A stretch of DNA of 32,312 nt, taken from contig JALHRB010000042.1 in assembly GCA_022841665.1 (NCBI GenBank), positions 1-32,312 on the forward strand, read 5' to 3'. Position numbers and translations under genes: made by a program. Each line of letters begins with the position of its first letter. Positions within the stretch are counted from its first letter, which is position 1. Below, one piece after another: positions 33 to 31,892 of this stretch. Source of the DNA: Pseudolabrys sp. GTDB lineage: Bacteria; Pseudomonadota; Alphaproteobacteria; Rhizobiales; Xanthobacteraceae. The notes under the pieces were generated by a model. That model saw only the letters and a list, made by a program, of their open reading frames with translations. It had not been told where the DNA came from and made no database searches.

Positions 33-1462
33 GACGTCTTCGCCGCGCCAAGATCGTCGCCACCCTCGGCCCCGCCTCGTCCAGCCCGGACATGATCGCG
101 CGGCTGTTCGCCGCCGGCGCCGACGTGTTCCGCATCAATATGAGCCACACCAGCCACGATCGCATGCGCGAGCTGGTGACCATGATCCGCTCGGTCGAGC
201 AGGACACCGGGCGGCCGATCGGCATTCTGGTCGATCTGCAGGGGCCGAAGCTGCGGCTCGGCACCTTCACCGGCGGTTCGGCCCAGGTGAAGAACGGCGA
301 CACGTTCGTCCTCGACTCCGACAATGCGCCCGGCGACGCCGCGCGCGCTTTCCTGCCGCATCCGGAAATCTTCGCCGCGGTCGAGCCCGGCCACACGCTG
401 CTGATCGACGACGGCAAGGTGCGCCTTACCGTCACCGAAGCGCTGCCGAGCCGCATGACCACGCGCGTCGTGGTCGGCGGCAAGCTGTCCGACCGCAAGG
501 GCGTCAGCCTGCCCGACTCCACCATCCCCTTCTCCGCGCTGGCCGAAAAGGACCGCTCCGACCTCGAGGCCGCGCTCAACGCCGGCATCGACTGGGTGGC
601 GCTCTCCTTCATCCAGCGGCCGGAGGACATCGCCGAGGCCAAGAAGATCACGCGCGGCCGCGCTTCGGTGATGGCCAAGATCGAGAAGCCGCAGGCCGTG
701 AACCGGTTGCCCGAGATCATCGAGCTGGCCGACGCGCTCATGGTGGCGCGCGGCGACCTCGGCGTGGAGATGCCGCTGGAGAAAGTGCCCGGCGTGCAGA
801 AGCAGATGACGCGGCTCGGCCGCGCCACCGGCAAGCCGGTGGTGGTCGCCACGCAGATGCTGGAGTCGATGATCAATTCGCCGGTGCCGACGCGCGCGGA
901 AGTCTCCGACGTCGCCACCGCCATCTTCGAGGGCGCCGACGCGGTGATGCTGTCGGCGGAATCGGCGGCCGGGCAGTTTCCGGTCGAGGCGGTCACGACC
1001 ATGAACCGCATCGCCGAGGAGGTCGAGAACGACCCGATCTACCGCAACATCATCTCGGCGCAGCGCGCGCAGCCGGAGCCGACCGGCGCCGACGCCATCG
1101 CCGACGCCGCGCGCCACATCGCCGACACGCTCGACCTCGCCGCCGTGATCTGCTGGACCTCGTCCGGCTCGACCGGCCTGCGCATGGCGCGCGAGCGGCC
1201 GCGGCCGCCGATCGTCGCGCTGTCGCCAAACATGTCGACCGGCCGGCGGCTGGCCGTCGTGTGGGGCGTGCATTGCGTCGTCACCGAGGACGCGCACGAC
1301 CAGGACGACATGGTCGACCGCGCCTGCCGCATCGCCTTCAAGGAGGGCTTCGCCAAGCCCGGCCAGCGCGTGATCGTGGTCGCGGGCGTGCCCTTGGGGA
1401 CGCCGGGCGCGACCAACATGCTGCGGATCGCCTATGTCGGAGCCGAGGTGGCGGAGGAGTAA
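29..1462 (+). CDS. pyk: Pyruvate kinase
   Basis: A 477-residue cytoplasmic glycolytic enzyme that converts phosphoenolpyruvate and ADP to pyruvate and ATP, full length for the bacterial family. Visible landmarks are the N-terminal KIVATLGPASSS segment, FRINMSH with the substrate-binding Arg, DLQGPKLR, the B-domain (about residues 70-165), MAKIEKPQAV with the catalytic Lys, the signature around ALMVARGDLGVEMPLEKVP, and VATQMLESMI followed by PTRAEVSDVA and MLSAESAAG, which carry the metal and K+ site residues. The C-terminal allosteric-type domain (about 350-477) is complete. The ATG at 29 overlaps the stop of the preceding frame, suggesting an operon with the gene to the left. Downstream lies the unrelated metal-efflux operon. 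Nothing unusual was seen. Confidence 0.97.
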   Translation: MRRLRRAKIVATLGPASSSPDMIARLFAAGADVFRINMSHTSHDRMRELVTMIRSVEQDTGRPIGILVDLQGPKLRLGTFTGGSAQVKNGDTFVLDSDNAPGDAARAFLPHPEIFAAVEPGHTLLIDDGKVRLTVTEALPSRMTTRVVVGGKLSDRKGVSLPDSTIPFSALAEKDRSDLEAALNAGIDWVALSFIQRPEDIAEAKKITRGRASVMAKIEKPQAVNRLPEIIELADALMVARGDLGVEMPLEKVPGVQKQMTRLGRATGKPVVVATQMLESMINSPVPTRAEVSDVATAIFEGADAVMLSAESAAGQFPVEAVTTMNRIAEEVENDPIYRNIISAQRAQPEPTGADAIADAARHIADTLDLAAVICWTSSGSTGLRMARERPRPPIVALSPNMSTGRRLAVVWGVHCVVTEDAHDQDDMVDRACRIAFKEGFAKPGQRVIVVAGVPLGTPGATNMLRIAYVGAEVAEE

Positions 1463-1535
1463 CCGGTGCAGGCTTGGTTAATCTTACTGATAAATCGTCA
1501 TCATAATGGCCGATTCGCCGTGCTATAGACCCGCC

Positions 1536-1973
1536 ATGCTCATCGTGCCCCGCATGGCGCGCTCTCTGACTGCCGCAGCCGCACTGGCCCTTGCCGTGCT
1601 GGCGCCGTCGGTCGCCGCGGCCCATTCCGGACACGCACACGCGCCCCAGGTAACGGCGCCGCATGCGCCCCAGGTAACGGCGCCGCATGCGCCCGCCGCA
1701 GCGGCGCAGACCCGGAGCACCGTCGCAAAGCCCGCGATGCAGGAATTGACCGCCGCCCAGGCCACGCCAGCCGGCGCGCCGGATGCGCCGGCCTGCACCG
1801 ATCGCGGTTGCTGCACCCACAGCGCCTGCGGCACCGGCTTCAGCATCGTCGCGCCGGTCGTGGCGATGATTTTCCCAGCCTCGGCCGGTTCCCTGATTCA
1901 CGCGCGCGATGGGCCCGCACGGCCCGCCCTTGCGGCCGAGGGGCCGAAGCGGCCACCCAAGCTTTTCGCCTGA
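1536..1973 (+). CDS. Small exported His/Cys-containing protein of the metal-efflux operon
   Basis: A 145-residue protein of unknown function. The ATG at 1536 is preferred over the in-frame ATG at 1506 because it puts a signal peptide at the N terminus (MARSLTAAAALALAVLAPS, cleavage near AAA-HS). The mature protein begins with a His-rich HSGHAHAP segment and an exactly duplicated octapeptide (APQVTAPH), encoded by a 24-bp tandem repeat. The middle carries closely spaced cysteines (CTDRGCCTHSACG), followed by a short hydrophobic stretch and a Pro/Arg tail ending RPPKLFA. Similar small Cys-bearing exported proteins are common beside heavy-metal RND pumps in this order. A periplasmic metal-binding or sensing role is inferred from composition and position only. 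Confidence 0.72.
   Translation: MLIVPRMARSLTAAAALALAVLAPSVAAAHSGHAHAPQVTAPHAPQVTAPHAPAAAAQTRSTVAKPAMQELTAAQATPAGAPDAPACTDRGCCTHSACGTGFSIVAPVVAMIFPASAGSLIHARDGPARPALAAEGPKRPPKLFA
1641..1688 (+). repeat. 24-bp exact tandem duplication in a coding region
   Basis: Two perfect adjacent copies (1641-1664 and 1665-1688) that begin GCGCCCCAGG and end GCGCCGCAT, followed by the first six bases of a third copy. The unit is a multiple of three, so it duplicates APQVTAPH without changing frame. The identity at the DNA level suggests a recent slippage event. Confidence 0.95.
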
Positions 1974-2057
1974 ACATCCGTCAGCGTCCGCAACGCCGCC
2001 ATTAGTGGCCGGTTGCGCGGGCGCGATCCGTTCAATCGGCGAAGGGCTTGTCTTTCC

Positions 2058-3734
2058 ATGTTCTCTCATCTGGCTTCCGCGTTCGCGGCGGCGCTTATTG
2101 TCATCGCGGGCGCCGATGCGCTCCGCGCGCATGAAGGTCACGACCACGGCGCTCCCGCACCGTCCGCGCCGGTCAGCGCGCAGCCGCGCGGCGAGGCGAT
2201 TTCCGACGCCTTCGAGCTGGTCGCGATCGCCAACGGCGCGAAACTCGTCGTCTATCTGGACCGCTTCGCCAGCAACGAGCCGGTGGACGCTGCGACGGTC
2301 GAGATCGAAACGCCGAAGGGGCCCGCGACTGCGGCCCGCGAAGGCGACGGCATCTATCGCCTCGACGCGCCTTGGCTCGCCGACGGCGGCGCCTTTGAGC
2401 TGATCGCCACGGTCACGATGGGCGACGTCGTTGATATCCTGCCCTTCACCTTGCGCGTTCCCTCCGGCACGGCGGCGGCGGCGACGGGCGCGCCCGCCGG
2501 CGGCATCGCCTCGGTCGGCGCCTACGTCGCAAGGCTGATCGACTTCAAGACGCTTCTGGTTGCCGGAGCCGGCTTTGCGCTCGGCGTTGTTCTCATGGCG
2601 GTCGGACGCCGCAGGCGCTCCCGCGCCGCAGCCCTGCTGTTCGCCGCGGCTGCCGCCGTCGCCACGATGCAGACCCCGACGCCGGCCGTGGCGCACGAAG
2701 GCCACGATCACAACGCCTCCCCACCCGCCATTGCGGCGGGAGAGCGGGCGCAGCGTCAGCCGGACGGCGCGGTCTTCGTGCCCAAACCGATCCAGCGCAT
2801 CTTCGGCATCCGCACGCTTCAGGTGCAGTCCGCCACCATCGCCCGCGCGATCGAACTGCCGGGCCGCGTCATTCCCGATCCGAACGCCAGCGGATTCGTG
2901 CAGACCGCCACCAGCGGCCGGCTCAGCCCGCCACCCGGCGGCTTTCCCCGCCTCGGCACGTCGGTGAAGGAAGGGGACATCCTCGCCTTCGTCACGCCGC
3001 CGATGCAGGCGATCGACGTCTCCGACATGCGCCAGCGCCAGGGCGAGCTCGACCAGCAAATCACCATCGTCGAGCGGCGCCTGTCCCGCTACGAGACGCT
3101 GGCGCCGAGCGGCGCGGTGGCGCGCTCGGTGCTCGAGGAGACCAAGCTCGAACTCGACGGCCTGCGCGACCGCCGCGCCGCGCTCGACCGCGTGCGCAGC
3201 GAGCCGCTGCCGCTGATCGCGCCTGTTTCGGGCGTCGTCGCCGAGGGGACGCCGGTCGCCGGCCAGATCGCGCAGACGAACTCCGTCGTCTTCCACATCG
3301 TCGATCCGGCGCGGCTCTGGATCGAAGCCCTGAGCTTCGAGGCTGTCGCCGCCGGCGGCGCGTCGGCCAGGACCGGCAACGGCAAGACGCTGGCCCTCGC
3401 CTTCCGCGGCGCCGGCCTCGCCGACCGCAGCCAGTCGATCCCGGTGCACTTCGCCATCGAGGGCGAGATCGACGGCCTGCGCGCCGGCCAATTCGTCACC
3501 GTCTTCGCGCAGACCGGCGAGCGGCACGAAGGCCTCGCCGTTCCGCGCAGCGCGGTGGTGCGGACGACGAACGGCCAGGACTTCGTGTTCGAGCACGTCA
3601 CCGCCGAGCGCTTCGAGCCGCGCCCGGTGCGCGTCGAAACGCTGGACGCGGAGCGCGTGCTGATCTCGGCCGGGGTCGAGCCTGGCCGCCGCGTCGTGAT
3701 CCAGGGCGCCGAACTTCTCGACCACGTGCGCTGA
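2058..3734 (+). CDS. RND efflux periplasmic adaptor (CzcB/CusB-like) with an extra N-terminal module
   Basis: A 558-residue membrane fusion protein expected to link the inner-membrane pump encoded next to an outer-membrane channel. ATG 2058 is chosen over a TTG at 2013 because a signal peptide follows it directly. Residues 25-30 read HEGHDH, then comes a beta-rich domain (about 50-140) starting near FELVAIANGAKLVVYL. A membrane segment sits near 159-183, then a basic RRRRSR stretch, a second hydrophobic segment (about 190-208) and a second HEGHDH near 212. The remainder is a standard adaptor: lipoyl halves around LSPPPGGFPRLGTSVKEGD and PLIAPVSGVVAEGTPV, a helical hairpin between them, beta-barrel and membrane-proximal parts to the end. 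The gene ends 12 bp before the pump gene. Metal specificity is inferred from the His motifs and pump class. Confidence 0.88.
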   Translation: MFSHLASAFAAALIVIAGADALRAHEGHDHGAPAPSAPVSAQPRGEAISDAFELVAIANGAKLVVYLDRFASNEPVDAATVEIETPKGPATAAREGDGIYRLDAPWLADGGAFELIATVTMGDVVDILPFTLRVPSGTAAAATGAPAGGIASVGAYVARLIDFKTLLVAGAGFALGVVLMAVGRRRRSRAAALLFAAAAAVATMQTPTPAVAHEGHDHNASPPAIAAGERAQRQPDGAVFVPKPIQRIFGIRTLQVQSATIARAIELPGRVIPDPNASGFVQTATSGRLSPPPGGFPRLGTSVKEGDILAFVTPPMQAIDVSDMRQRQGELDQQITIVERRLSRYETLAPSGAVARSVLEETKLELDGLRDRRAALDRVRSEPLPLIAPVSGVVAEGTPVAGQIAQTNSVVFHIVDPARLWIEALSFEAVAAGGASARTGNGKTLALAFRGAGLADRSQSIPVHFAIEGEIDGLRAGQFVTVFAQTGERHEGLAVPRSAVVRTTNGQDFVFEHVTAERFEPRPVRVETLDAERVLISAGVEPGRRVVIQGAELLDHVR

Positions 3735-3746
3735 CGGGAGCCGCCG

Positions 3747-6700
3747 ATGTTCACATTCCTGGTTACCCGATCGCTGCGCAACCGCCTGCTGGTGCTGGCC
3801 TTGAGCCTCGTCCTGGTCGCGTTCGGCGCCTACAGCGCCGCCCGCCTGCCGGTCGACGTGCTTCCCGACCTCAACAAGCAGATCGTCACCATCATGACGG
3901 AGGCCGAAGGCCTCGCGCCGCCGGAAGTCGAATTGCTGGTGAGCTTCCCGATCGAGACGCAGATGAACGGCATTCCCGGCGTCACGCGCGTGCGCTCGGT
4001 CTCCGGCGTCGGCCTGTCGTTTGTCTATGTCGAGTTCGAGTGGGGCGGCGACGTTTTCCGCAACCGCCAGCTTGTCTCCGAGCGGCTGGGCCTGATCCGG
4101 GATCAGCTCCCTGCCAACACGACGCCGCAGATGGGCCCGATCAGTTCGCTGATGGGGCAGATCGTGATGGTCGCCGTCACAAGCGACCGCGCGACGCCGA
4201 TGGAGCTGCGCGACGCCGCCGACTTCACCATCCGCCCCCGCCTCATGAGCATTCCCGGCGTGGCGCAGGTAATCCCGATGGGCGGCGAAGTGCGCCAGTT
4301 CCGCGTGTCGCCGCAGCCGCCGGCGCTGCGCGCGCTCGGCGTCGGCTACGAGCAGGTGGAGAAGGCGCTGCAGCAGTTCGGCGCCAATGCCGGCGGCGGC
4401 TTCGCCGACCTGAACTCGCGCGAGTACCTGATCCGCAACATTGGGCGCACCACCAGCCTCGACGACCTGCGCAACGTCGTGGTGGCGACCGTCGACGGCA
4501 GGCCGGTATACCTGCGGCAGGTGGCGACGGTCGAGTTCGCCGCGCGCGTCGAGCGCGGCGACAGCGGCTTCATGGGCGATCCCGCGGTCGTGGTCGCGAT
4601 CGAGAAACAGCCGGGCGTCGATACCATCGCGCTGACGGGCAAAATCGAGGACGCGCTGCGCGACCTCAACGCCAGCCTGCCGCTCGGCATCAAGGCGACC
4701 AACATCTTCCGCCAGGCAAAGTTCATCGAGACCTCGATCCGCAACGTGCAGACGGTGCTGCTGGAGGCGGCGCTGGTGGTGGCGGTCGTGCTGTTCGCAT
4801 TCCTGCTCAATTGGCGGACCACGGCGATCTCGCTCACCGCCATTCCGGTGTCCATTCTCGCCACCGCGGCGGTGTTCTACCTCGCCGGCATTTCGCTCAA
4901 CACCATGACGCTCGGCGGCATCGCCATCGCCATCGGCGAGCTGGTGGACGACGCCGTGGTCGGCGTCGAGAACACGTTCCGGCGGCTGCGCGAGAACCGC
5001 GCGCTGCCGGACCCGAAGCCGGCCTTCGACGTGGTCGTCGCCGCCACGCAGGAGGTGCGCTCCGGCATCGTCTATGCGACCGCCATCATCGTGCTGGTGT
5101 TCGTGCCGTTGTTTGCGCTTACCGGCGTCGAGGGCAAGCTGTTCGCCCCGCTCGGTCAGGCCTACATCATCTCGATCCTGGCGAGCCTCGCGGTCTCCGT
5201 GACGCTCACGCCCGTGATGTCCTACTACATGCTGCCGCGGCTCAAGCGGCTCGACGAGCGCGAAAGCTGGCTGGTGCGCACGCTCAAGCGCGGCTACCGC
5301 ACGGCGCTCGAGCACGCTTATCGCCGCAGCCGCGCCATTCTGGCGGCAACCCTGGCGCTGGTCGCACTCGCGGGCGCCGCCGCCTTCATGCTGCCGCGCG
5401 CGTTCCTGCCGCCGTTCAACGAAGGCACCTTCACCATCCTGATGACCATGAACCCCGGCGTATCGCTCGCCGAATCCAACCGCGTCGGCGCCATCGCCGA
5501 GCGCCTGATCCTCGACACGCCGGAGGTGCTCACCGTCGGCCGCCGTACCGGGCGCGCCGAGCTCGACGAGCACGCCGAGGGCGTGCACGTCACCGAGATC
5601 GACGTCGACCTCAAGCCCTCGGGCCGGCCCAAGACCGACGTCGTCGCCGACATCCGTTCCCGCCTGTCGGTGCTGCCGCTGTCGACCAATGTCGGGCAGC
5701 CGATCTCGCACCGGCTCGACCACATGCTCTCGGGCATCCGCTCCGAGATCGCGCTCAAGATCTTCGGCGAGGACCTCGACGCGATGCGCGCGACGGCGGA
5801 GGAATTCCGCGCGAAGCTCGCGAAGATACCCGGCCTCACCGACGTGCAGGTCGAGAAGCAGGTCCGCGTTCCGCAGCTGGAGATCCGCGTCGACTACGGC
5901 CGCGCCGCGCTTTACGGCGTGCAGCCCGCCGCGGTCGTCGACCAGCTCGGCCGGCTGTCCAACGGCCGCGTGGTGTCGCGCATCGCCGACGGCATCCGCC
6001 GCTTCGACGTGGTCATGCGCCTGCCCGAAAGCCTGCGTACCACCGAAGGCCTCGGCGGACTGCTCATCGAGACGCCGACCGGCTGGATTCCGGCGCGGCA
6101 GATCGCCGAGATCAAGGAGACCGACGGGCCCAACCAGATCCTGCGCGAGAACGGCCGCCGCCGTATCGTCGTGCTCGCCAACAGCGACGGCCGCGCCGAC
6201 GTCGCCGCGCTCGTCGAGCGCATCCGCGGTGAGCTGCGCCAGGCCAAACTGCCGGAAGGCATGTTCACCAGCCTCGAAGGCACTTTCCAGGCGCAGGAGC
6301 AGGCCGCCCGCACCATCGGGCTCCTCTCGATGATCTCGCTCGCGCTGATCTTCGCCATCCTGTACAGCCGCTACCGCTCGGCCGCCTGCGCGCTCATCAT
6401 CATGGGCAGCGTGCCGCTCGCGCTGATCGGCTCGGTGGCGGCGCTGTGGATCGCCGGCCAGCCGCTCTCGGTCGCCAGCATGGTCGGCTTCATCACGCTG
6501 ACCGGCATCGCCGCGCGCAACGGCATTCTCAAGATCAGCCACATGATCAACCTGGCGCTGCACGAAGGCATGCCGTTCGGCCGCGAACTGGCGACGCGCG
6601 GCTGCCTGGAGCGGATGACGCCGGTGCTGATGACGGCGCTGGCGGCGGGCGTCGCGCTGATCCCGCTGATGATCGACGCGGCCAGCCCCGGCAAGGAGAT

Positions 6701-6881
6701 TCTGCACCCGGTCGCGCTGACCATTTTCGGCGGCCTCATCAGCGCGACGCTGCTCGACGCCTTCGTCACGCCGATCCTGTTCCTCGCCTTCGGGCGCAAA
6801 ACGATCGAGCGCCTGCGCGCGGGACCGGCCGGCGAACCGCAGGCCGGCGGCGCCGGCGCGCCCGCCATCACCCCCTACTGA
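3747..6881 (+). CDS. Heavy-metal efflux RND pump (CzcA/CusA family)
   Basis: A 1044-residue proton-driven inner-membrane pump, the usual length for the HME-RND class. It has an N-terminal membrane helix, a first periplasmic domain with the family sequence PIETQMNGIPGVTRVRS, a block of membrane segments near 335-530, a second periplasmic domain, and a last membrane block near 860-1020. The helix carrying proton-relay acids reads AIGELVDDAVVGVENTFRRL. CzcA has a DFG-x3-DGAV pattern there, so this pump lacks the first Asp of CzcA and has Glu and a double Asp instead, which resembles the subgroup Nies called HME4. The metal is therefore not safely assigned; zinc/cobalt should not be assumed. It belongs to the operon with the adaptor upstream and a small exported protein downstream. 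No outer-membrane channel gene is present in the window. Confidence 0.92.
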   Translation: MFTFLVTRSLRNRLLVLALSLVLVAFGAYSAARLPVDVLPDLNKQIVTIMTEAEGLAPPEVELLVSFPIETQMNGIPGVTRVRSVSGVGLSFVYVEFEWGGDVFRNRQLVSERLGLIRDQLPANTTPQMGPISSLMGQIVMVAVTSDRATPMELRDAADFTIRPRLMSIPGVAQVIPMGGEVRQFRVSPQPPALRALGVGYEQVEKALQQFGANAGGGFADLNSREYLIRNIGRTTSLDDLRNVVVATVDGRPVYLRQVATVEFAARVERGDSGFMGDPAVVVAIEKQPGVDTIALTGKIEDALRDLNASLPLGIKATNIFRQAKFIETSIRNVQTVLLEAALVVAVVLFAFLLNWRTTAISLTAIPVSILATAAVFYLAGISLNTMTLGGIAIAIGELVDDAVVGVENTFRRLRENRALPDPKPAFDVVVAATQEVRSGIVYATAIIVLVFVPLFALTGVEGKLFAPLGQAYIISILASLAVSVTLTPVMSYYMLPRLKRLDERESWLVRTLKRGYRTALEHAYRRSRAILAATLALVALAGAAAFMLPRAFLPPFNEGTFTILMTMNPGVSLAESNRVGAIAERLILDTPEVLTVGRRTGRAELDEHAEGVHVTEIDVDLKPSGRPKTDVVADIRSRLSVLPLSTNVGQPISHRLDHMLSGIRSEIALKIFGEDLDAMRATAEEFRAKLAKIPGLTDVQVEKQVRVPQLEIRVDYGRAALYGVQPAAVVDQLGRLSNGRVVSRIADGIRRFDVVMRLPESLRTTEGLGGLLIETPTGWIPARQIAEIKETDGPNQILRENGRRRIVVLANSDGRADVAALVERIRGELRQAKLPEGMFTSLEGTFQAQEQAARTIGLLSMISLALIFAILYSRYRSAACALIIMGSVPLALIGSVAALWIAGQPLSVASMVGFITLTGIAARNGILKISHMINLALHEGMPFGRELATRGCLERMTPVLMTALAAGVALIPLMIDAASPGKEILHPVALTIFGGLISATLLDAFVTPILFLAFGRKTIERLRAGPAGEPQAGGAGAPAITPY

Positions 6882-16703: not shown

Positions 16704-16729
16704 TCGCCGTTTGCAGTCCACGCCACCCA

Positions 16730-16757
16730 TTGCCGCCGATGCGATGGAGTGTAGACT
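16730..16757 (+). promoter_or_regulatory. Putative promoter of the DUF4041-nuclease gene
   Basis: TTGCCG (16730-16735), a 16-base spacer and TAGACT (16752-16757) lie about 40 bp before the ATG at 16798. The boxes are partial matches to the sigma-70 consensus. It suggests the gene carries its own promoter and does not rely on the amidohydrolase upstream. Confidence 0.4.
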
Positions 16758-16797
16758 TAACCGTTTGCACTCATTGATTGCCAGCGGAGTCAATGTC

Positions 16798-18135
16798 ATG
16801 GCAGTACCAAACGAACAAAAAGTCTACGCGCCATCAACTATTCCGTGGTTCGGCGCGCGTAGTATGGCGCGCAAGCTCGCGGCCGAAGTCGAGCAACTGC
16901 GTGCCCAGCGCGATGCCGCGCGAAATCACCTCGAAAGGCTTGGCGCGTTGCCTATTCTCCAGCTTGAGGCTCGGCGACTCGAGCTTGAGAACGAGGTCAA
17001 AGAGCAAACGACGCGAATCGCCCGGGGGTGGGCCGAAGGAGCCGCCGGGTTAACGGCTCTAAAAAAGCAAATTGAGGAAGCTCGCCGAGAACTAGTGACC
17101 ACGGAAGATTCAGCGCTTCTGCAGGAGGCCGGCGTTTACCGATATCGGCATCCTTTGACCGATGCTGTCGCCTATGAAAGCGCGTTGGCTAAGATTGAAG
17201 ATGCCATCAAGGGCATGAATCGAAAGGAGGGAGGTGCCGTTCTCGCAACTACGAATTGGACAGTGAACGGCTCAGCGGCAGAAGGTCGCGCGATGGTTCG
17301 CGATTTTTCAAAATTGATGCTCCGCGCATTCAACGCTGAAGCTGACAATCTCGTTCGTGCGTTAAAGCCCTATAAATTAGATGCCGCGACTGATCGCTTG
17401 GTGAAGGTTTCTGAAACCATCGCGAAATTAGGAAAAACGATGGATATTCGGATTTCCAGTTCATATCTTCTACTACGCATCCAAGAGCTTTCACTAACTG
17501 CTGATTTCTTACAAAAGAAAGAGGAAGAAAGGGAGGTTGAGCGACAAGAAAGAGAGCGCTTGCGCGAGGAACGTAAAGTACAACAGGAAATCGAGCGCGA
17601 GCGCGCGCGGCTAGAAAAGGAACGTCAACATCACGCGAACGCTCTTGACGCTCTGATAGCAAAAGGCGACTCGGAAGGCGCTGAGCGACTGCGTGCGCAG
17701 CTGGATGAAATTGATCGCAATATTCAAAGTGTTGATTACCGCGCGGCAAATGTTAGAGCAGGCTATGTCTACCTGATCTCCAACATTGGATCTTTTGGAG
17801 AAAAGATGGTCAAAGTGGGCATGACTCGCCGACTGGACCCAATGGATAGAATACGCGAACTGAGCGACGCGTCTGTACCGTTCAATTTTGATGTTCACGC
17901 GCTTTTTTTCTCAAAAGACGCTGTCGGTATTGAAGCGGCAATGCACGAGCGATTGGCAGGTGTTCGCGTAAATATTGTCAATCGCCGTCGAGAATTTTTC
18001 CGGGCGACTCCGGTTGAAGTGAAAAAACAGCTGAGCGAGCTTGCCGGCGAGCTTCTACAATTCCAGGAAGAGCCAGAGGCACTTGAGTATCGGCAGTGCC
18101 TTCGCGAGCAAGCACAGGGTCGGCTACAAAGCTAA
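16798..18135 (+). CDS. DUF4041 / GIY-YIG nuclease protein (SNIPE-like anti-phage candidate)
   Basis: A 445-residue protein in three parts. Residues about 20-105 are coiled coil (Glu/Arg/Leu-rich). Residues about 112-300 are the DUF4041 domain: GVYRYRHPLTDAVAYESAL, NWTVNGSAAEGRAM, KLMLRAFNAEADNL, then a long charged helix. Residues 320-405 are a GIY-YIG nuclease of the T5orf172/MUG113 type: GYVYLI (G322-I327), KVGMTRR (K339-R345), the HE pair in AAMHERL (H383, E384) and NRRREFF (N395, E399). The same domain pair occurs in SNIPE, a membrane-bound nuclease reported to cut phage DNA during injection. Here no transmembrane helix is visible at the N terminus, so recruitment to the entry site would need another route. 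ATG 16798 follows GGAG at suitable spacing. G+C is lower than neighbours (29 of 60 bases in 17341-17400). Defence is inferred. Confidence 0.88.
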   Translation: MAVPNEQKVYAPSTIPWFGARSMARKLAAEVEQLRAQRDAARNHLERLGALPILQLEARRLELENEVKEQTTRIARGWAEGAAGLTALKKQIEEARRELVTTEDSALLQEAGVYRYRHPLTDAVAYESALAKIEDAIKGMNRKEGGAVLATTNWTVNGSAAEGRAMVRDFSKLMLRAFNAEADNLVRALKPYKLDAATDRLVKVSETIAKLGKTMDIRISSSYLLLRIQELSLTADFLQKKEEEREVERQERERLREERKVQQEIERERARLEKERQHHANALDALIAKGDSEGAERLRAQLDEIDRNIQSVDYRAANVRAGYVYLISNIGSFGEKMVKVGMTRRLDPMDRIRELSDASVPFNFDVHALFFSKDAVGIEAAMHERLAGVRVNIVNRRREFFRATPVEVKKQLSELAGELLQFQEEPEALEYRQCLREQAQGRLQS

Positions 18136-19076: not shown

Positions 19077-19407
19077 GACGCCGGTTGAAGCGCGAAGCGC
19101 GCAGGCTTGCCGCCTTATAGCAGGGTGGCGCGCGCGCTCAATCAAAGGCAGGCAATGCCGGCCCCCGATCTGCCGACTGACGATTAGTAATATTTTTCAA
19201 TATCTTAGAAGTTATTAACCACAATTAAGGCACTCTGCTGCGGTTGAGGGTTGTTCTGTTCGCTTTCTGTTCTATCCTTACACCGCGTACCGCCGACGCA
19301 TTCGTCTCGCGGTCCCCAGCGGGAAGGCGGCTATGATCACTTTGCCATTTCGGGGCAGGCCAAGACGTTGTCGGTCCATTTGAGCGACGGCATGAAGGAC
19401 GACTTTG
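19077..19407 (+). promoter_or_regulatory. AT-rich spacer with the probable promoter of the methyltransferase operon
   Basis: This gap has no gene that I can support. The stretch about 19185-19230 is clearly AT-rich (TAGTAATATTTTTCAATATC and on). A sigma-70-like pair lies at 19251-19256 (TTGTTC) and 19273-19278 (TATCCT) with a 16-base spacer; transcription would begin near 19285 and leave a leader of about 120 nt. The leader contains two tiny open frames of 16 and 7 codons, the second (ATG 19392) overlapping the methyltransferase start. Whether these matter for control is unknown. Confidence 0.4.
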
Positions 19408-22400
19408 GTGAGTGAGGTTGACCGCTGGATCGCTGGGCTCGGGTACAATGAGGTGCCCGGCGCTTTGTTGCTTAAGGATAAGCCGTTACCAGTTGATCAC
19501 CCTTTCGCTTCTGAAGTCGAAGCGATGTTCAACGTAGCTGGCGACGTCGGTGCCTCTGCTGTGTTGTGTATCGATCGGGTGCCGACAGTTTGTCTTGTCG
19601 ATGCTGCGCACCTTAGCGGGACCAAGCAAGCACAGATTAGCCAAGTCCGCCGATTCTGTGAGCGGCTTTGGAATCAGAACCTCGCTCGAATTGTCCTTGT
19701 TGCTCATGAGCAGAGTTTGGAAGCTTGGTCCGTCGATGATCCTGAGGCAGCCCGTGAAAGCATTTCATCAACGGCCACCGACGATCTTTCTGACTTTTCC
19801 TTTCAGGGGTTGCTGAGCGGTGAGGTCTTAAAGAATCGGTCGACCTGGTTCGATCCTCACAAACGGGTAGACAAAACACTGCTCGATAATGTCGGCGTGC
19901 TCGTTAAGAAACTCACGGGCCCCGTGCCAGCAAACATGGCACGGGAGATAACTGCCTCAGTAATTTTCGTTGCGTATCTGGAGGATCGAGGCATCGTCAC
20001 CGATGCATATCGAGAAAGCCGACGCGTGTCGGCTCTTATCGAGCTTTTGGAAAAAGCCGACACTGATGGCATTGAAAGATTGTTCGGTCAGCTACAAAAG
20101 GACTTTAATGGCGATTTTCTAGCGCCAGACGCACAAAAAGTTCGGATGTGGAAGGCCTTGCCGCCATCAGCGTTTGGCGACTTACATCAGTTCCTGCGGC
20201 GGACAGTACTTCGTTCCGGACAAACGGATTTTTGGCGGTACAACTTCGCGCAAATTCCTATTGAGTTGATCGCTGGCATTTATGAAACCTTTTTAGGTCA
20301 AAAGGCCGAGGCCGAAACAGTCGCCAACAGCAACGCAACAGGAAAGCGCAAACAGGGGGCCTACTACACACCGCGCTTGCTTTCCGACTGGGTTGTAGAA
20401 CAAGCGCTAGAGGGACTCGACCCACTCAAGCAGCGGATTTTTGATGGAGCCTGTGGTTCGGGAATGTTGCTGACGGCAGCATTCCGGCGGCTCATGCGCG
20501 CTCAACGCTCAACAACAAAGCCAATATCTGTCGGTGAGGAAATCACCGATTTTTCTCTCCGCTGCAACCTTCTTCTTGGACATATCTTCGGAAACGATAT
20601 TGACGATGATGCGCGCAGATTGACTGCGTTTAGTCTTTATCTCGCTTTGCTGTCTGATCTCGCGCCCCGAGATTTGGAATTGCTGCGGCAGGGCGGCCAC
20701 AAACTGCCCTCTCTTAAAAAAAACATACGCAGCAATGGCTACGGAAATTTCTTTAGCGACAAGAGCGAGGCGCTGAACAAGGGACAGTACACAGTATTTA
20801 TCTCGAATCCGCCGTGGCGAGAAATGCCCCCGGGTGATCCCGAAACGCTGGTGGTTGAAGCTTGGGCGAAGCGCCAGCCAACACCGGTCTATTGGCCGAA
20901 GAGTCAAATCGCTGCCGCATTTGCATTGGCCGCAGCCGATTCACTAACCAACACTGGCCGCGTTGCTATGGTGCTACCGATCAGCCTGTTTATTTCTACG
21001 GAGCCCAGCACGCGCCGCTTCCGCGCAAACCTGCTGTCGCGATACAAGATCGAACGCATTACTAATTTTGCCGATATGCGTCGCCTTATCTTCGTGGATG
21101 CGGACCATCCATTTGTAGTGATGCTTGCTACTCGTCGGGTGGGGTTGCCGGCGGAGCTTTCAGGAGAACAGTTTGAATACTGGACACCCAAGACGGACAT
21201 ATCGCTTTCTTTGGGGCGCCTTACTTTGCATGGGGCCGATCGCAACGTGTTGGCGGCTTCTGCCCTGATCGATGAAGCCCCACATCTCAGCCTGAGATAC
21301 TGGGGCACTCGTCAGGATTTGGCCCTCCTTGAGCGACTGTGGCAATACGGCACAGTTAGCGAACTACGCTCTGATCACGGCTGGGAAAAGGGCAAAGGAT
21401 TTCACCTGGTTGATAACGACAAGCGAGTGAAGTCGGAACTCCGATCCGTTAAGCCGTCGCGGTGGCTTCGCACGCACAAGTTCTTGCGCGCAATTCGTAT
21501 CCCAAGTGACCTACCGTTTGTCGATAAACTGTGTCTTGAGCGTTTTCCGTATGATGAAATTGCCCGTGAGGGCGATGAGCTTCGGCGCAACTTCAAGGGC
21601 CCTCGAGTCATTTGGCCGGATGGTACGCATCCAGAAAAAGGGGTGAAGGCCGCATTTGCGGATGGCGCGTTTAGTTTTCGACACTCCGTGGGTGTACTGT
21701 CTGCGCCCGATACCGAGCTTGGGCGCCTAGAGGCGCGTTTCCTGACGGCATACATGCGGTCGCCCTTGGGGACTTGGCTTTCCTTGCTGCTGAGTCCCTC
21801 CGTCGCTGCTGAACGTCCAAAGCTTCATGTCAAGGAATTGCTAAGCTGGCCATACTGGCCTGCCGCTAAACATCCTCAGCCTAAAAAAGCCCTCGCAATT
21901 TTGAAGAAGGTTGATCGCCTCTTCTCAGCGATCGAAAGAGCAGGATCTTTAAATCAGCGTCGAAAGTATGCTGATAGAAAATCCGAATTGGACGCATTGG
22001 TTTTCGAGTATTTCGAGGTGAGAACCGAAGAGCAGATCCTTGTAAATGAGTTGGCGACCTATGCGGGCCCATCGCTTCAACCTGGCAGCTTGAGCTATGA
22101 CATGCTCGTCAAGTCAATGCGAAAACCGCCATCGAGCAGCAATATTGATCGGTACTGCCGACGTCTGGTTTCCGTGCTCGTCGATTGGCGCGACGCCACG
22201 GGAGGGAAGGGTGAGCTTAATGCCGTTCCCTGGACCGCTCGAAGTGTCCCGATTGGCGGCGTGGTCATCACTCGTTCTCAGTCCAAGTCACGTCAGCCCT
22301 CTGCTGCGCGATTGAGAGACGACAGCGTTATTGGAGAACTACTAAACACAGTGACGAAAGCGGTTGACGGGAGTCCGGAACAGTTTTTGACCATTCCGGA

Positions 22401-22542
22401 TGTCATCGCCGTCGAGAGCAATCGCATCATTATCGTAAAGCCGCTTGTAACACGATTTTGGCTCGAACGTGCAGCCGTCGAGGATGCAAGTAAGTTGGTT
22501 GCCGAAATCACTGCCATTCGGCATGCGAAAGGCGTTGCATGA
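19408..22542 (+). CDS. Large N6-adenine-type DNA methyltransferase of a restriction-modification-like pair
   Basis: About 1044 residues. The first 310 form an N-terminal region; FCERLWNQNLARIVLVAHE (about 87-105) resembles the WNQ segment before the catalytic domain of large Eco57I/type IIG-like methylases. The methyltransferase core follows: GAYYTP near 318, SAM-binding FDGACGSGML near 346 (motif I), GNDIDDDARRLTAFSLYLAL near 396, and catalytic NPPW near 468 (motif IV), the signature of gamma-class N6-adenine enzymes. The remaining 550 residues should include target recognition (FKGPRVIWPDG, a typical TRD-region segment) and a helical end. GTG 19408 is chosen with AAGGA upstream; TTG 19405 is also possible. 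No intact PD-(D/E)XK motif was seen within it. The downstream nuclease gene overlaps it by ATGA. Lower G+C (28 of 60 in 20521-20580) suggests transfer. Confidence 0.88.
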   Translation: MSEVDRWIAGLGYNEVPGALLLKDKPLPVDHPFASEVEAMFNVAGDVGASAVLCIDRVPTVCLVDAAHLSGTKQAQISQVRRFCERLWNQNLARIVLVAHEQSLEAWSVDDPEAARESISSTATDDLSDFSFQGLLSGEVLKNRSTWFDPHKRVDKTLLDNVGVLVKKLTGPVPANMAREITASVIFVAYLEDRGIVTDAYRESRRVSALIELLEKADTDGIERLFGQLQKDFNGDFLAPDAQKVRMWKALPPSAFGDLHQFLRRTVLRSGQTDFWRYNFAQIPIELIAGIYETFLGQKAEAETVANSNATGKRKQGAYYTPRLLSDWVVEQALEGLDPLKQRIFDGACGSGMLLTAAFRRLMRAQRSTTKPISVGEEITDFSLRCNLLLGHIFGNDIDDDARRLTAFSLYLALLSDLAPRDLELLRQGGHKLPSLKKNIRSNGYGNFFSDKSEALNKGQYTVFISNPPWREMPPGDPETLVVEAWAKRQPTPVYWPKSQIAAAFALAAADSLTNTGRVAMVLPISLFISTEPSTRRFRANLLSRYKIERITNFADMRRLIFVDADHPFVVMLATRRVGLPAELSGEQFEYWTPKTDISLSLGRLTLHGADRNVLAASALIDEAPHLSLRYWGTRQDLALLERLWQYGTVSELRSDHGWEKGKGFHLVDNDKRVKSELRSVKPSRWLRTHKFLRAIRIPSDLPFVDKLCLERFPYDEIAREGDELRRNFKGPRVIWPDGTHPEKGVKAAFADGAFSFRHSVGVLSAPDTELGRLEARFLTAYMRSPLGTWLSLLLSPSVAAERPKLHVKELLSWPYWPAAKHPQPKKALAILKKVDRLFSAIERAGSLNQRRKYADRKSELDALVFEYFEVRTEEQILVNELATYAGPSLQPGSLSYDMLVKSMRKPPSSSNIDRYCRRLVSVLVDWRDATGGKGELNAVPWTARSVPIGGVVITRSQSKSRQPSAARLRDDSVIGELLNTVTKAVDGSPEQFLTIPDVIAVESNRIIIVKPLVTRFWLERAAVEDASKLVAEITAIRHAKGVA

Positions 22543-23198
22543 GCAACGTCAAAGGCCTAACCGCCAATAGCCCATTTATTGACTTGGTCGGCGAGCTCCC
22601 GATCGCAACGATGCTTAGCTATCTTCATGAATCATGGCTGGCATATGCAGATTGCGACAAAGAGTCAGAGCCGTCCTTCCAAAAGCGTAAGGAGCCGCAG
22701 CTTACGCAAGCACTGGCAGCCCATTTGCGTCAGCGACAGGATGCTGGGGAGCAGCCTTTTGTTGGGGATTTCTTCGGCGAGTTAGAGGATTACGTGCTCG
22801 ACAAAAATGGGCTGCCTAAATGCGTCGGGCGCACGGACATTGAGTGGCGTCTTCACGGCGTCCCGGCCTTTGTCGTGGAGTTCAAGGTACTGGATGGTAA
22901 GAAAACGCGGCGCGATCAATATCTGCACGATGGAGTTATGAGGTTTGTCATTGGGCGCTACGCCAGCAAGGCCATGGTCGGTGCCATGTTTGCGTTGCTG
23001 CGCAAGGCCGCAACAAAAGATCAGGGCCTGCTTCTCGCTGAATTTGAAACGAACGGCGCAAGTCTGCACTGCACTGGTATAAAAAAGAGTTCAGAACTTT
23101 TGCCGAGTATTGCAGCGTTTGACACTGCTCACCAACGAAACGCACCCCACGTAACGCCATTTTATCTCGCGCATTTGTTCGTTTCTCTGCCCTCTTAA
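22539..23198 (+). CDS. PD-(D/E)XK nuclease-like partner of the methyltransferase
   Basis: A 219-residue protein with no name that I recognise. It shows the core of a restriction-endonuclease-like fold: an N-terminal helix with Glu (KEPQLTQALAAHL, E52), then D100 in GRTDIEWRL, a strand with E114-F-K116 in AFVVEFKVL, and a following helix with Gln (RRDQYLHDGVMRF, Q127). The D...E-x-K order and the spacing of 14 residues between D100 and E114 are typical. The ATG overlaps the stop of the methyltransferase gene (ATGA at 22539-22542), so the two are co-translated and probably made in fixed ratio. It is most likely the DNA-cutting subunit of a modification-dependent or modification-blocked defence system. 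Function is inferred from motif and context. Confidence 0.8.
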   Translation: MSNVKGLTANSPFIDLVGELPIATMLSYLHESWLAYADCDKESEPSFQKRKEPQLTQALAAHLRQRQDAGEQPFVGDFFGELEDYVLDKNGLPKCVGRTDIEWRLHGVPAFVVEFKVLDGKKTRRDQYLHDGVMRFVIGRYASKAMVGAMFALLRKAATKDQGLLLAEFETNGASLHCTGIKKSSELLPSIAAFDTAHQRNAPHVTPFYLAHLFVSLPS

Positions 23199-23293
23199 AA
23201 ATCCAATGCCGCGTCGAGCCGCTCTAGCGAACGGCCGCGCCTAGCGACGTTAATTTGTTGTTTTTCAATGACTTATGGACAGAAAACGTAGCC

Positions 23294-23321
23294 CTTGCGC
23301 GGCCGAAAAGCGCCCCCATAT
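23294..23321 (+). promoter_or_regulatory. Heat-shock (RpoH, sigma-32) promoter of the hsp20 gene
   Basis: CTTGCG at 23294-23299 (inside CCCTTG), a 14-base spacer and CCCCATAT at 23314-23321 match the sigma-32 consensus CTTGAA-N13-15-CCCCATNT closely. Transcription would begin near 23328, leaving an untranslated leader of about 87 nt that contains the thermometer structure. Confidence 0.65.
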
Positions 23322-23353
23322 CAATTCCGCGCAGGCCAATGACGGCTGCGCAA

Positions 23354-23414
23354 CGGTCCGGTTCGGCCATCAGGCGGACCGGCCGCATGTCGCTCAACTC
23401 AAGGAGGATATGCC
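23354..23414 (+). promoter_or_regulatory. ROSE-type RNA thermometer in the hsp20 leader
   Basis: Two hairpins lie directly before the ATG. The first is CGGTCCG (23354-23360) with CGGACCG (23375-23381). The second pairs CATGTC-(G)-CTC (23386-23395) with GGAGGATATG (23404 to 23412 region), so the Shine-Dalgarno AAGGAGG (23401-23407) is held in the stem opposite TCGCT. The TYGCT sequence facing the Shine-Dalgarno with one extra G is the hallmark of ROSE elements, which melt on heating and release translation of small heat-shock genes in rhizobia and of ibpA in enterobacteria. Confidence 0.8.
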
Positions 23415-23870
23415 ATGCGAACTTTCGATCTTGCTCCCCTTTACCGCTCGACCGTCGGCTTCGACCGGCTGTTCTCGATGCTGGACGGCTTCGAGACCGC
23501 CCCGGGCTACCCGCCCTACAACATCGAACGCACCGGCGAGAACGACTACCGCATCACCATCGCGGTGGCCGGCTTCGGCGAGGAAGACCTGTCGATCGAA
23601 GCGAAGGAAAACACGCTGACGATCAAGGGCGCCAAGCAGACCAAGGAAGAGCAGAAGGGCGAGGTGCTCCATCAGGGCATCGCCGCGCGCGCCTTCGAGC
23701 GCGCCTTCCAGCTCGCCGACCATGTCGTGGTGAAGGCTGCGAACCTCGAGAATGGCTTGCTGCACGTCGAGCTCGTGCGCGAGATTCCCGAGGCCAAGAA
23801 GCCGCGCCAGATCCCGATCGGCAACGGCCAGTCCAAGCCGCAGGTGATCGACACCAAGGCCGCGGCCTAA
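23415..23870 (+). CDS. Small heat-shock protein, Hsp20 family (IbpA-like)
   Basis: A 151-residue ATP-independent chaperone that holds unfolding proteins in the cytoplasm. It begins MRTFDLAPLYRSTVGFDRLF, the usual IbpA-type N terminus. The alpha-crystallin domain spans about 35-130, with NIERTGENDYRITIAVAGF, the EEDLSIEAKENTLTIKG strand pair, and ARAFERAFQLADHVVVKAAN with the NGLLHVEL signature. The C-terminal extension includes RQIPI, the I-x-I type motif needed for oligomer formation. It is preceded by a RpoH-type promoter and a ROSE thermometer and is followed by a strong terminator, so it is a single-gene heat-induced unit. Composition is core-like, in contrast with the genes upstream. Confidence 0.95.
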   Translation: MRTFDLAPLYRSTVGFDRLFSMLDGFETAPGYPPYNIERTGENDYRITIAVAGFGEEDLSIEAKENTLTIKGAKQTKEEQKGEVLHQGIAARAFERAFQLADHVVVKAANLENGLLHVELVREIPEAKKPRQIPIGNGQSKPQVIDTKAAA

Positions 23871-25256: not shown

Positions 25257-25723
25257 TACGCGCACTCCATCCCTGTTTCGCGCGACCTTAGCGAAATGCA
25301 GCAACGGCGCGGCTTTTTCCCGTTTTGACGGTAAATCGGTTAATCGTGACGCGCTTTGCGCACGCCGCCGCCGCGCAATTGCGTTGCGCGCGGAGGCCCC
25401 CCGTGGTCCTGTTCTTGCTTGGTTGGGAAATACCGCCGCAACAAAAGGACAGGTTTTATCGATTCCAGCGTGGACCGGCCTTGTGTGGCGGGGCAAAATT
25501 TGGCATGGTCTATTAGGACAGTATTGCTGTCCTAATAGCGGCGCACGGGCGACGGCTCTCGGAGCGGGGGCAGACGCCTGGGTGTGCCCAACGGGAGCAG
25601 CCCGCGGCGGCGACAACCGCGCAAGGCTGCCCTTCATAAGACTGGTTGTGCATCGAACGCAGCGCCTCTTGGCGCGGCGAACGAGCCAGGTACGCCGGAG
25701 GACGTCCGGCGAGGCAGGAAGAC
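25257..25723. promoter_or_regulatory. Divergent intergenic region between doxX-like gene and gltB
   Basis: No gene is supported in these 467 bp. Both divergent promoters should lie here, but no pair of boxes is convincing. The most distinct element is the perfect inverted repeat at 25510-25538, listed separately. An open frame at 25325-25516 gives a sequence without any recognisable composition of a protein and is not called. Confidence 0.4.
25510..25538. promoter_or_regulatory. Perfect 12-bp inverted repeat upstream of gltB
   Basis: CTATTAGGACAG (25510-25521) and CTGTCCTAATAG (25527-25538) are exact reverse complements around the five-base centre TATTG. It is not followed by a T-run, so it is not a terminator. 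It lies about 186 bp before the gltB ATG. The form is that of a dimeric regulator operator; I do not recognise the regulator. Confidence 0.55.
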
Positions 25724-30448
<4,725 letters not shown>

Positions 30449-30449
30449 T

Positions 30450-31892
<1,443 letters not shown>

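Follow-up and report, generated by a model that had tools for sequence, protein, structure and literature searches.

In type IIG restriction-modification (RM) enzymes, an active nuclease domain is located in the same chain as the methylase. Split IIG-like systems, AchA6III and OspHL35III, whose endonuclease resides on another chain, have also been published (Blow et al. 2016, PMC4752239). In the examples described in the text of that paper, the nuclease is either a PLD fused to a translocase or a GIY-YIG accompanied by a separate translocase, and an unrelated system combines HNH with two translocases. Here we describe a two-gene locus in a contig of Pseudolabrys sp. [JALHRB010000042.1, positions 1 to 32,312], the whole of which (32,312 nucleotides) was analyzed and is called the window below. 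The locus encodes a large DNA methyltransferase of the type IIG family and a small, predicted PD-(D/E)XK-like nuclease.

With methylation and target recognition placed in the large chain and cutting done by the small chain bound to the large one, the pair would be a two-subunit type IIG-like RM system with the nuclease acting in trans, and we consider this reading probable. It is built on sequences and structural models: the methylase motifs, the loss of the catalytic triad from the N-terminal domain of the large protein, the triad and predicted fold of the small one, the near-obligate pairing and co-divergence of the two, and their insertion near a defence gene. An earlier note, made from the letters of this DNA alone, had proposed a compact RM-like defence in which a large methylase with its own target recognition works with a small separate nuclease. 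The sequence supports this architecture well, while its function we infer. The further claim of the note, that the pair fits no system its author could name, has to be amended, as the large protein matches a PADLOC type IIG model and the split IIG-like systems described in the text cited above have been in print since 2016.

The two genes and their products

The pair and the sites that define it are as follows.

19408-22542, + strand: large gene, gamma-class (NPPW) adenine DNA methyltransferase of the type IIG family; 1044 amino acids from GTG, or 1045 from the TTG at 19405.
22539-23198, + strand: small gene, predicted PD-(D/E)XK-like nuclease of 219 amino acids from an ATG start, belonging to no named family.
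22539-22542, + strand: ATGA overlap of the two genes, read from the sequence.
20440-20463, + strand: motif I, FDGACGSG, S-adenosylmethionine binding; D347, C350, G351, S352 and G353 are identical in 17/17 rows (alignment A6).
20806-20817, + strand: motif IV, NPPW, methyl transfer; N468 and P470 are identical in 17/17 rows (alignment A6).
21205-22014, + strand: expected region of the target recognition domain, residues ~600-870 with approximate boundaries, placed from the fold matches to BpuSI, M.BseCI, CamA, BrxX, MmeI and DrdV and from the usual IIG domain order.
22836-22886, + strand: predicted catalytic residues D100 (22836-22838), E114 (22878-22880) and K116 (22884-22886), invariant in 31/31 proteins and located on neighbouring strands of the model.

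The earlier note had reported two open reading frames (ORFs) joined by an ATGA overlap, the motifs FDGACGSG and NPPW in the large protein, and a triad D100, E114 and K116 with an accompanying Q127 in the small one. The ORFs (large 19405/19408-22542, small 22539-23198), the overlap, both motifs (residues 346-353 and 468-471, numbered from TTG) and the triad were all recovered. Q127, in contrast, lies outside the conserved columns, and it is the adjacent Y128 that is invariant (31/31). The note had also seen neither a helicase nor an ATPase in the pair; this agrees with the Pfam search, where no family of this kind was matched by either protein. The components of type I systems, HsdR with a helicase motor and HsdS, were likewise missing from the 15 window ORFs that were compared with Pfam. 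An AAGGA sequence is located at 19395-19399, upstream of the TTG/GTG start of the large ORF, and the ATGA overlap, as read from the sequence, makes translational coupling of the two genes likely.

The large protein matched the Pfam families N6_Mtase (8e-14) and Eco57I (3e-12) and, over residues 6-1033, the PADLOC model REase_MTase_IIG (PDLC03623) with 609 bits. Its AlphaFold2 model, built from 17 alignment rows, had a predicted local distance difference test score (pLDDT) of 81.8 and a predicted template-modelling score (pTM) of 0.83. The closest fold in the PDB was the type IIG enzyme BpuSI (3s1s, E 3.7e-16), and M.BseCI, CamA, BrxX, MmeI and DrdV were found among the first 50 PDB rows. Thus, the protein is a gamma-class adenine methylase with the domain order of type IIG enzymes. 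The usual order of domains in these enzymes was used to place the recognition region at residues ~600-870.

For the small protein of the window no family was matched in Pfam, PADLOC or PHROGs, and the one NCBIfam match was far under its cut-off. Sub-threshold Pfam matches appeared only in distant members of its family, for example PDDEXK_9 (E 0.11), DUF1803 (0.004) and TfoX_C (0.007). No PDB sequence matched the protein better than E 1, and the single PDB match of the family profile, at E 1.3, was taken as chance. The AlphaFold2 model (13 rows; pLDDT 84, pTM 0.81) nevertheless has the order of elements of a PD-(D/E)XK nuclease. It places the predicted D...(D/E)xK triad on neighbouring strands of the core fold, with D100 on strand 93-104 and E114 and K116 on strand 111-118. 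We take 18 of the first 20 PDB rows of the Foldseek search with this model to contain a PD-(D/E)XK domain (SfsA, McrC, Cas4-like proteins, Exo5, NucS and others); BglII and the nuclease domain of DrdV had ranks 31 and 32.

In an alignment of 31 small proteins, the window included, E52, D100, E114, K116, Y128 and H212 are invariant at a median pairwise identity of 20%; E52 and H212 had not been listed in the note. This set leaves out the loci L003, L004, L012 and L014, where the large gene is broken or split, as well as L037, L029-L036 (short flanks), re-fetched copies and L166-L173. Twenty of the loci outside it were checked separately: E52, D100, E114, K116 and Y128 were present in 20/20 and H212 in 19/20, the exception being L037, whose small gene is truncated at the end of the contig. 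Conservation of D100, E114 and K116 at such a low identity, and again in the further loci, is therefore not due to chance.

Pairing and co-divergence

The large protein was found at E<=1e-20 in seven of 398 genomes of the phylum, its own included, and in all seven the small gene lay behind it. Searched by profile, the small protein was found in nine of 385 genomes of the class, again with its own, and each time the large gene lay in front. Genome G016 was present in both draws. The pair is thus not abundant, occurring in about 2% of the genomes drawn from phylum and class. Plasmid records matching the large protein numbered 70 in one listing and 28 in another that overlapped it; 24 were opened, and the small gene was confirmed by profile in every one (24/24). 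Fourteen of the 28 plasmids were typed as conjugative and 10 as mobilizable, which places copies of the pair on mobile plasmids of alphaproteobacteria. In a viral collection both genes were present in 12/15 family loci, of which L043 and L044 are probably one contig counted twice; scans of this collection with a single protein mostly returned the query itself. A search of the contigs of 84,980 species revealed two relatives of the large protein and none of the small one.

A small gene with the complete triad was located behind the large gene in all family loci seen except L039, L046 and L051, and in L046, from the viral collection, the contig ends inside the large gene. Behind lower-scoring methylases (<190 bits) the small gene was found in 0/77 rows, 71 of which have at least 700 bp behind the ORF; these rows are a mixture, 40 having ORFs of at least 900 amino acids, and not all of them are single-chain IIG enzymes. 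The findings that the earlier note had named as speaking against its proposal included homologues of the small gene without the D/E/K residues and large genes that mostly occur alone. The residues were kept in every small protein compared (31/31 and 20/20 more), and the small gene nearly always accompanies the large one.

The large and small proteins also diverge in step. Over 31 loci, the pairwise identities of the large proteins were correlated with those of the small ones at r = 0.94, as compared with a maximum of 0.25 in permutations.

Several individual copies had a peculiar structure. On a Pseudosulfitobacter plasmid (L012, 5875-8177) the small gene is kept, but the large gene has been reduced to its C-terminal half; twelve Pseudosulfitobacter records show the same partial match to the large protein, and one of them (L012) was opened. 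Large genes that are split or bear stops were also seen on plasmids L003, L004, L170 and L173 and at the chromosomal locus L014. The pair was found on two Agrobacterium Ti plasmids, L143 and L170 (pTi_CFBP2407 and pTiAg57). Over the stretch that matches L143, the large gene of L170 bears stops, as does that of the Rhizobium plasmid L173, and the small genes of both are open. Behind the large ORF of L051 there is an opposite-strand ORF, transposase-like by eye, within the 591 bp that remain of the contig.

Vestigial domain, C-terminal extension and proposed mechanism

Two further regions distinguish the large proteins of the paired clade.

19462-19734, + strand: vestigial PD-(D/E)XK-like domain without the catalytic triad, residues ~20-110; from the profile alignment, the lost catalytic positions and the secondary structure of the model.
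22063-22539, + strand: C-terminal extension, residues ~887-1045, with a KPxxxRxW...DAD tail; from the comparison of C-termini and the strand and helix content of the model.

In the first 110 residues of the large model the elements follow the order alpha-beta-beta-alpha-beta-beta. An N-region profile of 26 family members aligned with that of eight single-chain IIG relatives over 273 columns with 98.7% probability. The nuclease domain is therefore recognisable, but its triad is lost: the window stretch matching the PD...ExK positions of the IIG enzymes reads GASAVLCIDRVPTVCLVDAAH, and the PD...ExK residues are not kept. The full D...ExK triad in register was found in 0/31 paired members and in all eight single-chain relatives, which were picked for showing the motif, so that 8/8 is a description and not a rate; by eye, the motif is present in 15 or 16 of the 23 other, non-paired rows printed. 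In the paired rows of the merged alignment the E and K columns are mostly gaps rather than substitutions, and 7/26 keep the D before the first strand. Some [ED]xK occurs in the N-terminal stretch of 5/31 members, none with the full triad in register; L024, with a D and an off-register EEK, comes closest. A DxK is located on the second strand of the domain in two paired members.

A permissive text search for D...[ED]xK in the N-terminal region separated the groups poorly (12/32 paired and 23/32 other sequences) because its matches fall in unrelated places; the domain is judged to be dead from homologous positions. Two members, L011 (4398-7649) and L045 (772-3972), form a sub-branch whose N-terminal domain of the large protein aligns poorly with the rest of the clade.

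The ratio of nonsynonymous to synonymous substitution rates (dN/dS) was ~0.09 for the dead domain, ~0.09 for the large protein and ~0.13 for the small protein, values that come from one close pair (L009-L040) since dS is saturated between the window and L014. The dead domain is thus under purifying selection and probably has some other use.

These data bear on one alternative, namely that the large protein is a single-chain type IIG enzyme, with unusual catalytic residues in its N-terminal domain, and the small gene is an accessory. PADLOC labels the protein as type IIG, and the remaining D in seven of the 26 members and the DxK in two could be read in this way. However, the complete in-register triad is missing from all 31 members, in contrast to the eight chosen single-chain relatives, and a small gene with its own complete triad follows at all but the three loci named above. 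We regard this alternative as very improbable.

At the other end of the large protein, the 11 single-chain relatives compared terminate shortly past a helix, which in most of them resembles Y-LYGLTE-E, whereas the paired clade runs ~150 residues further. A strict KPxxxRxW pattern was present in 20/26 paired-clade and 0/11 single-chain sequences. The extension may serve as a docking site for the nuclease, and together with the dead domain it is a natural candidate for this role.

The following mechanism can be proposed. The large subunit, combining a methylase with a target recognition domain, would methylate adenine in the host copies of its site. The ancestral nuclease domain at its N-terminus would be kept as a catalytically dead scaffold. 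The small PD-(D/E)XK protein, recruited by the large subunit, possibly via the C-terminal extension or the vestigial domain, would cut in trans, so that unmethylated incoming DNA would be cleaved at the recognition site of the large subunit or close to it. The proposal implies that the two proteins would bind each other, that specificity would come from the large subunit, on which cleavage would depend, and that the system would defend against phages or plasmids. When close pairs were compared for a recognition region that varies although the nuclease is kept, one pair, L047-L050, clearly showed this: the recognition region has 26-33% identity, versus 53% overall and 49% for the nuclease.

Several observations weigh against this two-subunit reading: (i) in L039 the large ORF is shortened and the following 3954 bp contain no small gene, and the full large ORF of L051 is followed by 591 bp, up to the contig end, without a small gene; (ii) the family profiles were built from paired members (except L051), and the sharp gap in scores is therefore partly a product of construction; (iii) six of the 26 paired-clade members do not strictly match KPxxxRxW; (iv) a second group of five single-chain IIG relatives aligns with the paired clade in the helical region only and not in the nuclease domain; (v) the small model is only weakly supported by its Foldseek matches, the best E-values being 0.014 (PDB) and 0.0035 (BFVD), with none at E<=0.001 and with low TM-scores; (vi) a PD-(D/E)XK protein of 219 residues is large enough to read DNA alone; and (vii) in most other close pairs the recognition region shows no special divergence, and no clear swap was seen in the closest pairs.

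The last two points lead to the most serious alternative, an ordinary type II pair in which the large protein is only a methylase and the small one an independent, EcoRV-like endonuclease reading the same site. Adjacent separate genes for a methylase and a nuclease, as found here, are the plain type II layout, and 219 amino acids is a usual size for type II nucleases. A recognition region about as conserved as the rest of the protein is what would be expected if both proteins were tied to one site; since most close pairs show this, an independent type II nuclease keeps a share of the probability. On the other hand, a single nuclease family here tracks a single methylase family down to ~20% median identity with matching divergence, whereas related methylases are often accompanied by unrelated nucleases when these are independent type II enzymes. 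An ordinary type II pair also leaves unexplained why a dead nuclease domain is kept under selection and why the clade has its own C-terminal extension. We therefore consider it rather unlikely and prefer the two-subunit type IIG-like system.

Genomic setting and relation to known systems

The surroundings of the pair contain two features of note.

19146-23414, no strand assigned: inserted segment carrying the pair; guanine plus cytosine (GC) content 0.52-0.55 per kb in its body versus mostly 0.64-0.72 outside.
16711-18135, + strand: defence gene of the PD-Lambda-1 kind (DUF4041 + T5orf172); PADLOC PD-Lambda-1 at E 1e-110, Pfam DUF4041 and T5orf172.

In 11 genomes of the same genus, located via the flanking hydrolase gene, the matches of the two flanking genes end 121-335 bp from each other, and neither member of the pair was matched at any of these loci (11/11). 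The other flank is a small-heat-shock-like gene at 23415, named by eye. In the window 4.27 kb separate the same two genes. Considering also the low GC content, the pair is most simply explained as an insertion. The PD-Lambda-1 gene is located in a kilobase with a GC content of 0.50, one hydrolase gene away from the pair. As the genomes of the same genus also have the hydrolase gene, it is probably flanked by two acquired defence elements. Defence-like neighbours were revealed in three relatives (AbiEii, a TIR protein and PDC-S06) when nine genes picked for their defence-like look were checked, of which six matched.

At several loci, small genes are located upstream of the pair. Annotated ORFs of 61-70 residues precede the large gene in L143, L144, L146, L166-L168 and L170-L172, XRE-family regulators were found in L142 and L145, and MerR-family regulators in L002 and L007, where they are annotated, and in L013, where the family was assigned by eye. 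These small genes are perhaps controllers of the two-gene system. Elsewhere in the window, at 25634-30463 and 1338-6881, both strands carry very long open frames that overlap (e.g., 1609 amino acids on the - strand and 1600 on the + strand); the minus-strand frame 25637-30463 had no Pfam match at E<=0.001.

The content of the neighbourhood bears on a third alternative, a methylation-guided defence without a defined cut site, BREX-like or abortive. Here the large protein would mark self; on sensing of unmarked DNA, the small nuclease would act without discrimination or attack replication intermediates. The large model indeed also matches BrxX/PglX structures, and BREX systems, according to a passage in PMC12707154, restrict without seen cleavage. 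However, the Pfam scan of 15 window ORFs revealed no PglZ, and the annotation of the flanks opened does not name one either (L147 is unannotated). The NCBIfam models of BREX and MADS match the large protein at no more than 29 bits, against cut-offs of 400-900. Such a mechanism is improbable here.

The two-subunit type IIG-like reading has consequences beyond this locus. The PADLOC IIG model covers the large gene, whereas the small one had no match among the PADLOC models. A clade labelled by PADLOC as single-chain type IIG would be a two-gene system, and a scan with this model would see half of it and could not judge its completeness. A dead nuclease domain beside a nuclease acting in trans would make the exchange of cutting and reading parts testable, and it is by this step that type I and type III designs are set apart from IIG. 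Where it is carried by mobile plasmids of alphaproteobacteria, the system would influence the exchange of DNA.

Comparison with known systems revealed likenesses and differences. BREX PglX/BrxX and MADS MAD2 resemble the large protein as large IIG-like methylases, and BrxX is among the fold matches of its model. Against the curated cut-offs, however, the large protein scored 27 bits versus 500 for BREX-1 PglX and 29 versus 720 for MAD2. BREX and MADS systems comprise more genes than the pair, and none of their partner genes was found among the 15 window ORFs scanned. Type II systems with separate R and M, including type IIH AhdI as described in a part of PMC4081073, share with the pair a separate nuclease and a gamma-class methylase. 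In that description the specificity subunit of AhdI is a separate protein and its nuclease is type IIP-like, whereas recognition in the pair would belong to the methylase chain. With type IIG enzymes (BpuSI, MmeI, DrdV; PDLC03623, PDLC03603) the pair shares the gamma-class methylase, its fold and domain order, and an N-terminal domain homologous to the IIG nuclease. It differs from them by the lost nuclease triad, the C-terminal extension and a nuclease on its own chain.

No description of the pair was found among the titles and abstract openings listed by searches of open-licence PubMed Central text, a scope that excludes REBASE and supplements. The pair may represent an unnamed, recurrent RM subtype, in which an obligate nuclease subunit, blind to sequence and steered by the recognition domain of the methylase, has taken the place of the IIG nuclease. 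The dead domain would survive as a surface for docking or control, and the system would consist of two genes with one shared specificity and without an ATP motor. Single-chain "type IIG" calls in databases would then be half systems within the paired clade. For this fuller proposal we see the case as evenly balanced.

The pair also resembles the split IIG-like systems, in which, as here, a methylase and recognition chain without the PD-ExK motif is combined with an endonuclease on a separate chain. By the account of PMC4752239, many of its 76 systems are atypical, and the pair is set apart here from the examples described in its text. Unlike these, it has a PD-(D/E)XK-like nuclease, no translocase and two genes only. 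Compared with those examples, the pair is the same idea, realized with a predicted PD-(D/E)XK-like protein and no translocase.

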